Shown: in pieces, positions 29,131 through 37,075 of the stretch | How positions within the stretch are numbered: position 1 is the first letter of the stretch | Layout of the letters: each line of letters begins with the position of its first letter | Assembly: GCA_024637225.1 (NCBI GenBank) | Contig: JAGXFP010000037.1 | Span: 1-64,000 of the forward strand | DNA from: Desulfobacterales bacterium | Lineage (GTDB): Bacteria; Desulfobacterota; Desulfobulbia; Desulfobulbales; JAGXFP01 | Direction: 5' to 3' | DNA length: 64,000 nucleotides | Position numbers and translations under genes: made by a program | The notes under the pieces: model-generated | What the model was told of the DNA's origin: nothing | Seen by the model: only the letters and a program-made list of their open reading frames with translations | Databases searched by the model: none

Positions 29131-29952
29131 TCAATTGAATTTTTTCTTCAGATGATTGTAGGCCTCATTGATCTCCTTCATCTTTTCCTCGGCAACCCGC
29201 CTGAACTCCTCGCCCAGATGAGATACTTTATCGGGATGGTACTCCATGCTGAGCTTCCGATAGGCCTTCCTGATCTCGTCGAATCCGGCGTCCGGCTTAA
29301 GCCCCAGCACCCCGTAATAGCGTTCATCACCGGCGGCGTAACCCCGGGCCATTCCTCGGTACTTGTTGTGAATAGCCTGGTGCTGATAGGCGTTAAGACC
29401 CAGATAGACGGCGATTCTTTCGGCGGCGTTGAGTTCGGCACTGATTACGTCGGGCTTTGAATAAATCACCTGATAGATCAGTTCGACCAGGATCAGGCGC
29501 GGTTCATAGGCGAAATTCGTCTTGAAATCGGCCAGCAGCTCCTCCAGTCTGGCCGTGGAGGTCATCGCCTCCTTGGTCAGCTCCTTTACCCAGAACATCT
29601 GGCTCTGGTTGTAGTGAAGATGGGTCCGGAAGAAGTTATTGATAGCGTTTAACTCCGAGCGGCTCACCTCACCGTCTATGCCTGCGATATTGACCAGGAT
29701 GTTGACCAGCAGAAAGACGAAGCGGTTATGACTTTCGGTCTGGGATTTTTCGTAATTGGCAATCTGGCGCTTGACGAAATAGGAAAATCCCCAGAAGGCG
29801 GCCCCGATAAAAAACAGGGTGAAAAGGCCGATGTAGAACACCACCCCAAGGATATCGAACAACAGCGGAAGCCCCCCGGTGATCAGGATCAGCAGGACCA
29901 CCATGAACAGGCAGCCCCCGCAGCCAGGTTGGTTATGTTGCCGGTATTGCAT
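29131..29952 (-). CDS. Membrane-anchored TerB-J-domain protein (DjlA-like co-chaperone)
   Basis: The 273-residue protein has an N-terminal hydrophobic hairpin (about 14-60, two helices), a TerB-like helical domain (about 75-190, with [20 protein letters not shown]) and a C-terminal J domain (about 207-273) with the essential HPD in [17 protein letters not shown]. This is the DjlA layout: J-domain protein on the inner membrane stimulating DnaK. DjlA has a single N-terminal helix, here it seems to be a pair, and a Gly/Cys-rich GCGGC at the very N-terminus. The next gene starts at its stop codon. Confidence 0.85.
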
Positions 29953-30325: not shown

Positions 30326-31333
30326 TCAACTATTGCCGAAAAGGGCATCCACGAATTCCCGCGGCTCAAAATCGCGCAGATCGTCGAGCTGCTCCCCTAC
30401 TCCGATAAATCTGATCGGGATCTTTAACTCCCGGGCGATATTGACGACGATGCCGCCCTTGGAGGTGCCGTCAAGCTTGGTCAGCACCAGCCCGGTAATG
30501 TCAACTGCCTCATTGAAAAGCCGGGCTTGGGAGATGGCGTTCTGACCGGTGGTGGCGTCGATAACCAGCAGGATCTCGTGGGGCGCGCCGGGAATTTTTT
30601 TAGCCATCACCCTCTTGATCTTCTTAAGCTCCTCGACCAGATTGACCTGGGTATGCATGCGGCCGGCGGTATCGACGATTATCACATCGCTTTGCCTGCC
30701 GCTGACCGAATCCAGGGCATCATAGATCACCGAGGAAGGATCGGCCCCGGCCTCGCGGGCCACCACCTCGACCCCGATCCGCTCCCCCCAGATCCCCAGC
30801 TGTTCGGCCGCCGCGGCCCGGAAGGTATCGGCCGCCACCAGCACGACCTTCCGGCCGGCCTTGCGAAACTTGTTGGCAAGCTTGCCGATACTGGTGGTTT
30901 TCCCAACCCCGTTGACGCCCAGGACCATGATGACCAGAGGGCCGGAATCGGGCATCCGCAATTCCTGCTCCGCCCCTGAAGCCTCCAGATATTCGATGAT
31001 TTTTTCCTGAAGAATTTTCTTCAAAGCCGCCGGATCCGCCAGTTCATTGCGAGCCGCCATACTTCTCGCCGATTCCAGCAGTTCCTGGGCGGTGCCGACG
31101 CCGAGATCGGCGGTGATCAAGACCTCCTCCAAATCCTCGAGCAGATCGTTATCGACTTCTTTCCTGCCCAGAAAGAGAGACTCCACCCTCTCCATAAACG
31201 AAGATCTGGTCCGGGCCAGGCCGTCAAGAAGCGGTTTGCTGTCATTGTCGTCGGACTCCAGATCAAGGGACGCTTCGGAATCCTCCGGCGCGGCTTGATC
31301 TTCTTTCTTTTTATTTTTAAACCAACCGAACAT
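30326..31333 (-). CDS. ftsY: Signal recognition particle receptor FtsY
   Basis: The 335-residue protein has a short charged N-terminal A region, then the NG domain: helical N (from about 45, [18 protein letters not shown]) and GTPase G with [15 protein letters not shown] near 140, [29 protein letters not shown] and a closing [22 protein letters not shown]. It docks SRP-ribosome complexes at the membrane. The ATG at 31333 has a GGAG site; the frame runs 4 codons further. The gene follows ispH-ubiA by 18 bases. Confidence 0.97.
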
Positions 31334-31351: not shown

Positions 31352-33079
31352 TCAAAATAAATTCACCAGAAAGGTCAGACCGGCAAGAAGCGGAAAAACT
31401 GAATCAACCGCGAACTCCAGCTTCGGACTATGGGAAATTCTGCCTTTATCATACATCGAGGCCACCATAAAAAGATAAAAGGAGACCGGCAATAATCCCA
31501 GCCAGACCAGGGGCAATAATCCGGACAGCACCCCCCCCACCGGGAGGAGGGCCAGAACGACAATCATTCCGTACAGTAATCGCATGGTCTTGGCCTGGCC
31601 GATGCAGACCGGCAGGGTCTCCTTGCCGGCAATCCGATCACCCTGAACCTCAAAGACATCATACAGGGCGCTGCGCACATAAACCAGGAGAAGCACGAAC
31701 AGAAAAGCGTTGACCGTCCCCGCGGTAAGTCCCTTGCCGCTCCCGCCGTATGGCACGACAATTATCACAAAAACCCAGGCCATGGCGACAAAAAAAGTCT
31801 TTGAGCCGGGAATCTCTTTCAAGCGCCGCACCTTGATAAGAGACGATAACCCCTTGGGGATAAACCTGACGCTGTACAGAACTCCCAACACACTCATTAA
31901 GGCCAGGATCGGAAAAGAGAAATCTTCATCAGCATAGGCGATAAACAGGGAGATCAGCAGGGCCGCCCAGGACAGACCGAGAATCGGCCGCCGGAATTTA
32001 TGCCGGAATTTTTCCCGCACGGGATCGGAGAACCGGCCGGTTTCCGAACCGATAAAACGATTGAGATTATGCATGGAGAAGAGATAGGCGGCAACCAGCA
32101 TAAAAGTCGCAAAGCCAGCCGTTTCGCCAAGCAACAAGGCAACCGCGCAAGCCAGGAGACCGCCGCCGGCACTGACATAGAGGTTTGAAGCCATCAGATA
32201 AACAATCAACCGGCCGAGCATACTGCCGAAACGGCTTTCATCGCGACCGGGAACCGACTCCAGAAACTGAATGACCCTGTTGATCAGCCAGGAGGGGGTA
32301 GAGGCCCCGGCGGTCACTCCGACGCAGGCATATTTCTCGAATAACTCAGGGTCAAGTTCTTCCTCGGTCTCGACCAGATGGACCGGGCAGCCCTTTTTCG
32401 CGACGAGTTCGGCAAGCCTTCTGGTATTGGCGCTGTTGCGCCCGCCGACCACGACCATCGCCTCGACCCTTTCGCAAAGGTCAAGGACGGCGGCCTGCCT
32501 CTTATGGGTCGAATCGCAGATCGTATTAAAGACCTTCCCGCCCGGAAAACGTTCAAGGATAACCGCGCTCAACAAGGAAAACGATTTATCGTCCTGGGTG
32601 GTCTGGCTGACAATGATATAGGGGGAAGAAAGAGCGACGGAGCGGGCCTCGTCCTCGCTGCTGACCACCTGGCCGGTTGCCCCGGCAAAGCCCAGAAGAC
32701 CGTCGACCTCGGCATGGTTCCGGTCGCCTATTATCACGGTGGCGTATCCGTCCTTCTGATGTTTGCGGATAATAGCCTGGACCTTTAAAACCCGGGGACA
32801 GGTGGCATCATGGACCTTGGCCCCGGTACTTCGCAATTTCTCCTTGCTTTCCGGCGGTACGCCATGGGCCCGGATAATAATGGTACCGTCGCGGTGGTCG
32901 GGGATTTCCTGAAGAATCTCCACCCCCCTTTCTTCCAAGAGGCCGAGTACCTGGGGATTATGGATCAGCGGGCCGAAGGTGGCGATCTTCTCGTTCTTCC
33001 GGACCATGTCCAAGGTAGTTTCGACCGCACGCCTAACACCCATGCAGAATCCGGCATTTTCGGCAAGAATCACTTTCAT
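31352..33079 (-). CDS. ispH: IspH fused to a UbiA-like membrane prenyltransferase domain
   Basis: Residues 1-285 are 4-hydroxy-3-methylbut-2-enyl diphosphate reductase, last step of the MEP isoprenoid pathway: the [4Fe-4S] ligands Cys12, Cys94 and Cys190, His40, His72, His124 and Glu126 are all present. Residues about 290-575 form eight or so membrane helices ending in a UbiA-type region. Its second aspartate motif (YDVFEVQGDRIAGKETLP) matches UbiA well, but the first (normally N-D-x-x-D) reads HNLNRFIGSE, lacking both Asp. So the soluble half should be active, while the membrane half may bind a different substrate or be non-catalytic. No frameshift or internal stop is seen; the fusion is real in this sequence. 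ispH-ubiA and ftsY form an operon. Confidence 0.92.
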   Translation of the reverse strand: MKVILAENAGFCMGVRRAVETTLDMVRKNEKIATFGPLIHNPQVLGLLEERGVEILQEIPDHRDGTIIIRAHGVPPESKEKLRSTGAKVHDATCPRVLKVQAIIRKHQKDGYATVIIGDRNHAEVDGLLGFAGATGQVVSSEDEARSVALSSPYIIVSQTTQDDKSFSLLSAVILERFPGGKVFNTICDSTHKRQAAVLDLCERVEAMVVVGGRNSANTRRLAELVAKKGCPVHLVETEEELDPELFEKYACVGVTAGASTPSWLINRVIQFLESVPGRDESRFGSMLGRLIVYLMASNLYVSAGGGLLACAVALLLGETAGFATFMLVAAYLFSMHNLNRFIGSETGRFSDPVREKFRHKFRRPILGLSWAALLISLFIAYADEDFSFPILALMSVLGVLYSVRFIPKGLSSLIKVRRLKEIPGSKTFFVAMAWVFVIIVVPYGGSGKGLTAGTVNAFLFVLLLVYVRSALYDVFEVQGDRIAGKETLPVCIGQAKTMRLLYGMIVVLALLPVGGVLSGLLPLVWLGLLPVSFYLFMVASMYDKGRISHSPKLEFAVDSVFPLLAGLTFLVNLF

Positions 33080-34954: not shown

Positions 34955-35716
34955 CTAGTTGTCCTTATTCCCGTCATGACGGCAGGCATGGGAGACCAGA
35001 ACGGATTGGGCCATGTCGGCGTCAAGGGCCAGCCTGGTGCCCTGGACGGCAACGATAAAAGGCCCGGTCGGGTTGTTGTTGATCACCTCGAGCAGGGCGC
35101 CGGGATTAAGCCCCATCGCGGTCATCCTGGCCTGGAATTGCCTGCTGCCGAGAACCTCGACAACCCGAACCTTCTCGCCGACCGCGGTCTGCATAAGGGG
35201 CGGGTTCTTTTCCCGCTTGGCCAGGCAATCATCGCACAACCCATAGATTTCCATCTTGTGCTGCAGAGGATGAAAATTATAACCGGAAGCGATCTCCAGT
35301 TGCAGACTTTCCAGACGGCTGTTGCGAAATTCCCGGATAAGGCCGCAGGAAATGCAGATAAAATGGTCGTGATGCTCGCCGAGATGGTGGTGTTCGTATG
35401 TCGCTTCCTGGGTTTCAAACTCGTTTTTCTGGGCAAATCCGCACTGGCAGAACATTTCCATGGTTTCACGCAGAAATTCGAGATCATAGTCGTGATTGCC
35501 GCCTGCCTTGATAAATTCAAGCATATCGACCAGAGTAATATGCAGTTCCATGCTCAGAAATTCATCCAGAATCTTGAGACGATCCGGGATCCGGGTGGCA
35601 TCGATCGATTCCAGCACCTCCCTGAATTGCTGGCGTTCGATATCATGCCGCTCAATTTCGGAAATCTCCGCCGAAGCGCCGCGCTTACGTTTTCTGAAGC
35701 CGGGAAATTTTATCAT
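34955..35716 (-). CDS. Fur-family regulator fused to a FeoA domain
   Basis: Residues about 20-165 form a Fur/Zur-type regulator: winged-helix part, then the hinge and metal-binding HHHLGEHHDHFICISCG with the CISC pair and a second CDDC pair near 160. Residues about 176-245 are a FeoA SH3-like domain (VGEKVRVVEVLGSRQFQARM, GLNPGALLEVI, TRLALDADMAQSVLV). FeoA is normally a partner of the FeoB ferrous-iron transporter, and SH3 FeoA domains also cap DtxR-type regulators. A Fur-FeoA chimera would parallel DtxR and may sense iron. No feoB is in the window. A half copy of a family 2 terminus (CCTGAATCC) begins 3 bases past its stop. Confidence 0.88.
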   Translation of the reverse strand: MIKFPGFRKRKRGASAEISEIERHDIERQQFREVLESIDATRIPDRLKILDEFLSMELHITLVDMLEFIKAGGNHDYDLEFLRETMEMFCQCGFAQKNEFETQEATYEHHHLGEHHDHFICISCGLIREFRNSRLESLQLEIASGYNFHPLQHKMEIYGLCDDCLAKREKNPPLMQTAVGEKVRVVEVLGSRQFQARMTAMGLNPGALLEVINNNPTGPFIVAVQGTRLALDADMAQSVLVSHACRHDGNKDN

Positions 35717-35785: not shown

Positions 35786-35910
35786 CCCGAATCCCTGGCA
35801 TTCAAAAAAAGGTCGAATACAGGGAGGTGAAGATGTCGCTCATCTTGATGGCATCTTAACGAGTTGCCGACCCCGCGGATCGCCCAGTTTCCGGTCGCCC
35901 GGGATTCAGG
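35786..35910 (+). repeat. Family 2 element, short copy
   Basis: Ends CCGAATCCC and GGGATTCAGG, with TTGATGGCATCTTAACGAG and TTGCCGACC inside, recalling the central block of the long copies. Its right end contains the stop codon of the NamZ-like gene (TGA inside CTGAATCC, read on the minus strand). Confidence 0.7.
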
Positions 35911-37075
35911 AGTAGAGGAAAAACTTACGCCTGAGCCGGTCGAACCCGGTCAATTCCTCCTGCCAGCTTTTTTCAAGTTCCCCAACTTTTTCACCCGCCT
36001 CCAGCGCCTCGCGAAGCGGCCTGCTGCCGATGATCATATCGAGAGGCAGCTTCTCGTATTCATACTCGTAGGGCGGCTCCTTATAGGCGAAATGTTCGGG
36101 ATAAAGATTCCGGAAGGTTTGGAGCAGGGAAAGGGAAGCGCGATAGGATCGAAAGGTCCGGCGCTCGGTAACCAGCAGCTGAAAACCGTTGCATAACCGG
36201 CCGCTATACTTGTTTGAGGTCGGTTCAAAGGCGACCGGCCGTAAGACCGCTCCGGCAAGATCGGAGCGGTCAACCTCGTTTAAAAAATCCTGGTGCGCCA
36301 GACAGGGAGCTCCGAACAGTTCGAAAGGCAGGCAGGTGCCGCGCCCCTCCGAGACGTTGGTCCCCTCCCAGATCACCTGGCCCGGATAGACCAGGGCAGT
36401 TGCCGGAGTGGGCATGTTCGGAGAAGGGAAAACCCACGGCAGGCCGGTATCTTCGAAGGACATGGTCCGGCGCCAACCGGCCATGGTGATGATTTCGAGA
36501 TCGGCATTGATCCCGAAATGTTCGTTGAAGAGCCGGGCCAGCTCTCCCATGGTCAAGCCGTGCCGCATGGGGATCGGATAAAGGCCGACGAAGGAGCGAC
36601 ACTCCTGCTCAACCAGATTGCCTTCGATCAGTTCACCGCCGATGGGGTTGGGCCGGTCAAGAATCACCACTTTTTTGCCGCAGGCGGCGGCCGCTTCCAG
36701 ACAATAGGCCATGGTTTGGATAAACGTGTAGACCCTGGTGCCGACATCCTGCAGATCGACGAGCAGCACGTCAAGCTGGTCGAGCATCGCCTCGTCCGGC
36801 TTCCGGGTTTCGCCATAAAGGCTATAAAGAGGCAGGCCGGTCGCCCGGTCCTTCATATGGCCGGACTCGATCATGTTGTCCTGTTTGTCGGCAAAAAAGC
36901 CGTGTTGGGGCGAAAACAGGCAGGTGAGCTGTCCCGGCAGGGCCGCGTTGACCAGATCCCGGCTATGGCGGAATTGCCGGTCGGTAGAGGCCTGATTGCA
37001 GAGCAGCCCGAGCCTCTTCCCCTTGATCCAGGGGGGAGGGGCGGTGGATAATTGTTCGATGCCGGTTTTAATCAT
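35906..37075 (-). CDS. DUF1343 / NamZ-type exo-beta-N-acetylmuramidase family protein
   Basis: The 389-residue protein matches the DUF1343 (GH171) family: KGKRLGLLCNQAST, CLFSPQHGFFADKQDNM, LPLYSLYGETRKP, LLVDLQDVGTRVYTFIQTM, ILDRPNPIGGELIEGN, and WVFPSPNMPTPATALVYPGQ. NamZ of Bacillus releases terminal MurNAc from peptidoglycan fragments, so this enzyme may recycle or degrade cell-wall pieces. No signal peptide is visible, unlike secreted members, so a cytoplasmic recycling role is possible. The stop codon lies inside a repeat element. Confidence 0.9.
   Translation of the reverse strand: MIKTGIEQLSTAPPPWIKGKRLGLLCNQASTDRQFRHSRDLVNAALPGQLTCLFSPQHGFFADKQDNMIESGHMKDRATGLPLYSLYGETRKPDEAMLDQLDVLLVDLQDVGTRVYTFIQTMAYCLEAAAACGKKVVILDRPNPIGGELIEGNLVEQECRSFVGLYPIPMRHGLTMGELARLFNEHFGINADLEIITMAGWRRTMSFEDTGLPWVFPSPNMPTPATALVYPGQVIWEGTNVSEGRGTCLPFELFGAPCLAHQDFLNEVDRSDLAGAVLRPVAFEPTSNKYSGRLCNGFQLLVTERRTFRSYRASLSLLQTFRNLYPEHFAYKEPPYEYEYEKLPLDMIIGSRPLREALEAGEKVGELEKSWQEELTGFDRLRRKFFLYS

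Follow-up and report, generated by a model that had tools for sequence, protein, structure and literature searches.

The locus described here raises the question of why an essential enzyme that forms isoprenoid precursors should be joined to a UbiA-like membrane domain without the first aspartate motif, and what such a domain might do. We show that the fusion itself is genuine. Within the 64,000-nucleotide stretch of Desulfobacterales DNA that was analyzed (the window), the ispH-ubiA fusion gene lies at 31352..33079 on the minus strand and encodes 575 amino acids, from an ATG to a TGA stop at 31354-31352, with no internal stop across the 575 codons of the minus-strand ORF 33079..31352; the first-pass annotation had the coordinates right, and the strand is minus. 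The protein consists of an IspH (LytB) domain (residues 1-275; 32255..33079, minus), a short linker (residues 276-282; 32234..32254, minus), whose P277 is present in 43 of 44 order-level fusions, and a UbiA-fold membrane half (residues 283-575; 31355..32233, minus). Pfam LYTB matches residues 3-273 (6.4e-89) and Pfam UbiA residues 323-549 (46.5 bits, cut-off 34.2), the latter establishing homology to the UbiA family, and the presence of both in one ORF bears out the annotation's claim that a complete IspH is fused to a UbiA-like membrane domain. With 44 of 96 genomes carrying the fusion intact in one frame, and 77 of 80 named loci carrying it in frame, the fusion is not explained by chance or by a faulty join.

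Fusions of this kind were published in 2015. Rao et al. (2015; PMC4746011), in the accessible text, described 47 IspH-UbiA hybrids, primarily from Desulfobacterales, which are sulfate reducers, placed them in the domain class PT_UbiA_5, stated that they carry two DXXXD repeats, and modeled the Desulfobacula toluolica protein. The same text proposes prenyl transfer, on the strength of these repeats, and membrane localization for the hybrids, and reports a modest, mostly truncated protein yield. The window's protein, with IspH followed by a UbiA-like domain in one frame, belongs with these hybrids, sharing the N-terminal IspH, the UbiA-like C-terminal part, nine predicted helices and occurrence in sulfate reducers and their kin. 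It differs from them as described, since two DXXXD sites were reported whereas the window has a motif I without Asp and ExxxD in motif II, and the accessible text makes no mention of motif erosion, loss or degenerate members. The IspH-RPS1 fusions (Rao et al. 2015; NF000907) likewise join IspH to a C-terminal partner, but according to the same text that partner is ribosomal protein S1 and not a membrane domain; NF000907 is the best hit of the window's IspH part, at 307 bits against a cut-off of 624. Our literature search, with most subscription journals outside its coverage, returned no later study of the IspH-UbiA fusion, no paper from 2016 onward joining IspH, UbiA and sulfate-reducing, and PT_UbiA_5 only in the 2015 paper. 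A 2025 article (PMC12605070) lists Rao et al. 2015 among its references, and PMC11218510, considered as a later fusion study, was rejected because, in the text available, 'IspH fused' refers to two-hybrid constructs.

The soluble half has the features of a working IspH. It scores 267 bits with TIGR00216 (ispH), over the curated cut-off of 187.85, and C12, C94, C188, H40, H72, H122 and E124, which we take to be the three cluster cysteines and the active-site histidines and glutamate of IspH, are invariant across 75 aligned fusions. Exactly one IspH match was found in each of the 47 genomes tested, fused and unfused, and the fusion is the sole IspH found in the window's genome, which is 88% complete. 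A second, free IspH in fused genomes is thereby ruled out, none having been found among the 47, and the fusion must supply the IspH step in fused genomes. Judging from the intact residues and from this sole-IspH status, the soluble half would make IPP and DMAPP from HMBPP.

Structure prediction, which the first-pass annotation had proposed as a check, returned a UbiA fold for the membrane half. AlphaFold2 modeled the half alone with a pLDDT of 87.7 and a pTM of 0.87, and the full protein with a pLDDT of 86.3 and a pTM of 0.75, the placement of the domains being only moderately defined. The best structural match of the half (VIA-align) is ApUbiA 4od4 (Z 18.8, rmsd 3.1, 254 aligned), followed by 4tq4 (Z 17.9) and UBIAD1 8djk (Z 15.4), while soluble polyprenyl synthases score no higher than Z 14.1 and the membrane PRTase 8j8j has Z 13.9. 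The helix list of the model and nine hydropathy peaks suggest about nine transmembrane helices, and the full model leaves about seven residues between the IspH domain and the first of them. The likeness to ApUbiA (4od4/4od5) and AfUbiA (4tq3-4tq6) extends over the whole predicted half (Z 15.4-18.8), but identity is only 12-14%, the window's half lacks both motif I Asp, and H337 and a conserved LKEIPGSKT loop (residues 420-428; 31796..31822, minus) are family marks of the fusion that set it apart from these structures. A profile of 44 membrane halves (A1) matched no solved chain by sequence up to E 10. The best NCBIfam match of the half, the prenyltransferase NF010117 / PRK13591, reaches 49.3 bits, well short of the 238 set as its curated cut-off; the half therefore does not belong to that family.

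The canonical UbiA motif I, N-x3-D-x3-D, is altered in the window. At HNLNRFIGSETG (residues 337-348; 32036..32071, minus), N340 is kept and the canonical D344 and D348 are both Gly. The motif II region, RSALYDVFEVQGDRIAGKETLP (residues 469-490; 31610..31675, minus), contains R469, D474, E477, D481, G485, E487, T488 and P490, with E477...D481, a conservative change, where DxxxD is expected; the window thus carries GxxxG and ExxxD at the canonical places. The register of motif I was set by alignment with three other UbiA genes of the window's genome, all of which have N-x3-D-x3-D, and also leans on rows of family f31, of L079/L080 and of L180, which keep N-x3-D-x3-D; it follows this pattern and not an inspected superposition, and a profile of the fusion halves against the three canonical UbiAs (A4) aligned only in the motif II stretch. 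All five genomes of the window's family (G000-G004) lack Asp at 344. The altered first motif noted in the first-pass annotation is therefore real, while its 'clear second motif' holds for D481 and not for the first Asp, which is E477. The idea that HxxN replaces the Asp motif throughout was rejected, since the realigned register shows Asp 344 kept in most relatives.

We next place the window within the wider family, whose rows were classed by motif only where they had an anchor H..[N, Y or H]. In the named set (76 rows: 75 loci and the window), motif I reads N,D,D in 2 rows, keeps N and the first Asp only in 47, neither Asp in 25 and N with the second Asp only in 1, and is without N in 1; the corresponding counts among 31 phylum rows are 6, 15, 3, 4 and 3. 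Two of these 107 rows repeat named ones, leaving 105 distinct fusions (the counts are the same for 107), of which 8 have a complete motif I and 28, the window's family included, have lost both Asp. All four canonical Asp occur in only 5 of the 105, all in family f31, and L180 (G416, f76) combines a full motif I with Ser at 481; the five f31 rows are near-identical among themselves, as are L079/L080. Asp 344 is kept in 53 of 79 named-set rows and in 24 of the 30 phylum rows that have a letter at this position. Hence most members surveyed here do not fit the published 'two DXXXD', although, given L180, that description may hold for Rao et al.'s own example. The named set comprises 81 rows with the window, five being unclassed (L104, L123 and L141 are cut; L114 and L115 are N-terminally shortened, and the IspH frame of L115 appears to be broken). 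Outside the 107 are also 11 degenerate fusions (L158-L168), repeats or broken rows (L146-L150), and rows without IspH (L145, L169-L171, L175, L176).

Other positions of the half are nearly fixed in the fused family, namely H337, N340, Y402, R469, D481 and E487. Counted by alignment column, separately from the motif classing, H337 is His in 80/80 named rows, window included, and in 31/31 phylum rows with a letter, one row of the 44 in the order set (L048) having Tyr. On the same two bases, N340 is Asn in 79/80 and 28/31, R469 is present in 80/80 and 31/31, D481 in 80/80 and 29/31, and E487 in 80/80 and 27/31. N340 has been lost from eleven fused loci (L158-L168), which belong to families f46, f51 and f94; H337 is missing from these as well, except in L160 and L161, and the seven f46 loci, still fused, retain no motif I at all. 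Pfam UbiA scores four of these degenerate halves at only 18-21 bits, under the cut-off, but f46 and main-family halves align by hhalign at 95.8% (7.5e-9, 245 columns) and are homologous along their length. The seven f46 halves closely resemble one another (mean column identity 78%), and two further f94 loci, L172 and L173, are less degenerate. Erosion of motif I runs through the fused family and is further advanced in some families that are still fused, which makes an altered or lost reaction the better-supported part of what the first-pass annotation suggested.

A search for the fusion in relatives, likewise proposed in that annotation, shows that the fusion is shared, as is the altered motif within the window's family. 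With the whole protein as query, 93 of 96 genomes, the window's own included, gave a match: 44 carry an intact one-frame fusion, one (G005) a fusion with a broken frame, two (G070 and G045) contig-edge pieces of the membrane half; in 19 only a close IspH was matched, at 55-66% identity, and in 27 only a distant one, at 32-42%. When 27 genomes were searched with the membrane-half profile (A1, 44 halves), only G005 and G070 matched, and none of the 19 close unfused genomes did; in 13 of these 19 the loci were read, and the other six are judged from match ranges and the empty profile search. At the level of the phylum, 143 of 345 genomes gave a match. Fifty phylum loci (L148-L197) were read, comprising the 10 best matches and 40 chosen loci, 20 of these weak or odd, so the sample is not random; 45 have both parts in a single frame, a contig end truncates one, another is split into two ORFs (G116), and L169-L171 are free-standing weak relatives. 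A named collection contains 92 loci encoding a relative of the half, of which 80 were kept; IspH lies in the same frame at 77, and the remaining three are cut by a contig end. Titles of the named loci include Desulfobulbaceae, Desulfobulbales, Desulfobacca, Syntrophus, Thermodesulfatator and one Planctomycetota bin. The first-pass annotation would have counted a split of the two parts in other strains against the fusion; separate ORFs do occur in G116 and a broken frame in G005, though among the loci read such cases are exceptional. At the G116 locus (L175), IspH and a partial UbiA half occupy separate ORFs with stops between them, either a natural split or decay or an assembly error. In G014 (L047:3995-6349), the open frame of the fusion extends upstream past the IspH start by about 214 residues, which is either an extra N-terminal part or a mere open frame.

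The surroundings of the gene also bear on its history. The SRP receptor gene ftsY (30326..31333, minus) begins 18 bases past the fusion stop. It is directly downstream in 41/41 fused order loci with at least 1.3 kb of downstream DNA (the frames overlapping by 54 bases in 2) and in 13/13 native unfused loci, a recount that admits overlapping open frames (4 of 54 loci, 39 to 61 bases). When IspH domains of the order were placed in a tree together with six fused outgroups, 4 changes were needed to account for the 13 unfused rows, the starred branches alone forcing 2, and a single clade of unfused rows is rejected (p-AU 0.0017); an earlier, larger IspH tree needs 5 changes, one being a foreign IspH. 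The outgroup rows of both trees were picked for being fused, which favors a fused ancestor; the nesting within the order is independent of that choice, and the direction of change partly depends on it. On the simplest account, the membrane half was apparently lost in place more than once in the window's order, upstream of ftsY. Since 19 order genomes have a close IspH and no half, the half is dispensable in some lineages. Where it is kept, it evolves under constraint. Comparisons of the window with G001, G002 and G004 gave dN/dS values (Nei-Gojobori) of 0.22, 0.15 and 0.19 for the membrane half and of 0.12, 0.08 and 0.14 for IspH, with synonymous sites near saturation in the G002 and G004 comparisons; these low values indicate that the half is constrained even without the motif.

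Of nine window neighbors tested, ftsY and a TerB-DnaJ gene are those often kept beside the fusion. The latter (29131-29952, minus) lies behind ftsY, has a weak DjlA match (62.9 bits), follows in many order loci, and has a homolog within 1.5 kb of the fusion in 35/80 named loci. On the other side, a single ORF at 34955-35716 (minus) contains a Fur domain (Pfam FUR, residues 44-158) and a FeoA domain (173-242), and is possibly a ferrous-iron regulator fusion; 7/80 named loci have a homolog no more than 1.5 kb from the ispH fusion, and a literature search for Fur fused to a FeoA domain surfaced only a FeoA-FeoB paper. The ORF at 35906-37075 (minus) encodes a NamZ-type exo-N-acetylmuramidase with both Pfam domains; in 5/80 named loci a homolog is found upstream of the fusion at a distance of up to 1.5 kb.

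The genomes also encode other UbiA enzymes. Three are present in the window's genome, all with N-x3-D-x3-D in motif I: a heme O synthase (TIGR01473, 292 bits, cut-off 210), a UbiA-like polyprenyltransferase (TIGR01475, 313 bits, cut-off 180.8), and a third to which no family was assigned. Since the heme O synthase lacks the motif II DxxxD in the alignment, loss of an Asp pair is not in itself proof against transfer. Canonical UbiA genes with high scores were found in 34 of 35 relatives (15 or more each fused and unfused), the exception being G010; quinone prenylation should therefore not need the fused half, and is probably carried out by a separate canonical UbiA-type gene. Compensation by another UbiA in unfused genomes was rejected, as more than one UbiA gene besides the fusion was present in 6/16 unfused and 8/19 fused genomes; ten of the 16 have a single UbiA match and six have 2 to 4.

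Collectively, these observations point to an IspH tethered to the membrane by a UbiA domain that has been re-purposed and is probably not a transferase, a reading to which we give a probability of about 0.55. In the predicted structure, a linker of some seven residues joins IspH to a UbiA-fold domain of about nine helices, and this domain would hold IspH at the cytoplasmic face of the membrane, the sidedness following that of UbiA structures. Because both motif I Asp are lost, the UbiA domain of the window's lineage is unlikely to be an ordinary Mg-dependent prenyltransferase, and it may have been retained to anchor or scaffold IspH; anchoring, also envisaged in the first-pass annotation, is plausible. 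A ligand, either a prenyl phosphate or a lipid, could be held by the set H337, N340, Y402, K427, R469, D481 and E487. Consistent with a tethered IspH and a re-purposed domain, f46, f51 and f94 stay fused without N340, the half is constrained, a canonical UbiA is encoded elsewhere, and the half was apparently lost in place. The conserved polar set, however, resembles a binding or active site beyond what an anchor needs, and with Asp 344 in most relatives, many members may still bind Mg-diphosphate.

The published proposal (Rao et al. 2015; PMC4746011, in its accessible text) follows a Rosetta-stone argument, in which the UbiA half is a real prenyltransferase using prenyl diphosphates made from the IPP and DMAPP released alongside it. 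D481 and N340 are near-fixed, Asp 344 is present in most members, five f31 loci have all four Asp, and L180 has a full motif I (with Ser 481), all of which fit that proposal. Nevertheless, a complete motif I in 8/105, four Asp in 5/105 and neither in the window's family, together with the absence of the half from 19 relatives, 16 of which were examined for other UbiA genes and showed no surplus of them, make it unlikely. UbiA enzymes take longer prenyl diphosphates and are not known to use IPP, so direct channeling, the other possibility raised in the first-pass annotation, would need a further enzyme.

It is equally improbable, in our estimate, that the half uses the UbiA fold for another kind of chemistry, acting for instance on a prenyl monophosphate or in another lipid reaction, with H337 and E487 as new catalytic residues. 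The near-invariance of H337 (80/80 and 31/31) and E487 (80/80 and 27/31), the presence of R469 in all rows, and purifying selection on the half fit such an enzyme, and the UbiA-fold PRTase 8j8j, a structural match at Z 13.9, belongs to a type of membrane enzyme that acts on prenyl monophosphate. No partner gene points in this direction, ftsY and the TerB-DnaJ gene being those often found beside the fusion among the nine neighbors tested, and the residue set is lost in f46, which stays fused. That the half is a fusion artefact or a decaying passenger without function, as its absence from 19 near relatives and the split in G116 might suggest, is very improbable, given its intact state in 44/96 order genomes and 45/50 further phylum loci, its low dN/dS and its near-fixed residues.

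Returning to the tethered IspH with a re-purposed UbiA domain, it is tempting to go further and speculate, tentatively, that these proteins represent a UbiA-fold lineage, nearly always fused to IspH, in which the metal-dependent site has eroded and a fixed H337-N340-Y402-R469-D481-E487 site has taken on a new membrane role; such a domain might be a pseudo-prenyltransferase, or might carry out a new lipid reaction controlling or receiving the last product of the MEP pathway. What differs from the 2015 description is that the catalytic Asp of the membrane half are lost here and in many relatives while selection on the half is retained. The only account of the fusion that we found assumed a prenyltransferase fed by its own IspH, and our motif survey indicates that this cannot be assumed for most members. 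Sister genomes that naturally lack the half offer ready-made comparisons, fused versus unfused, on the use of having IspH at the membrane.
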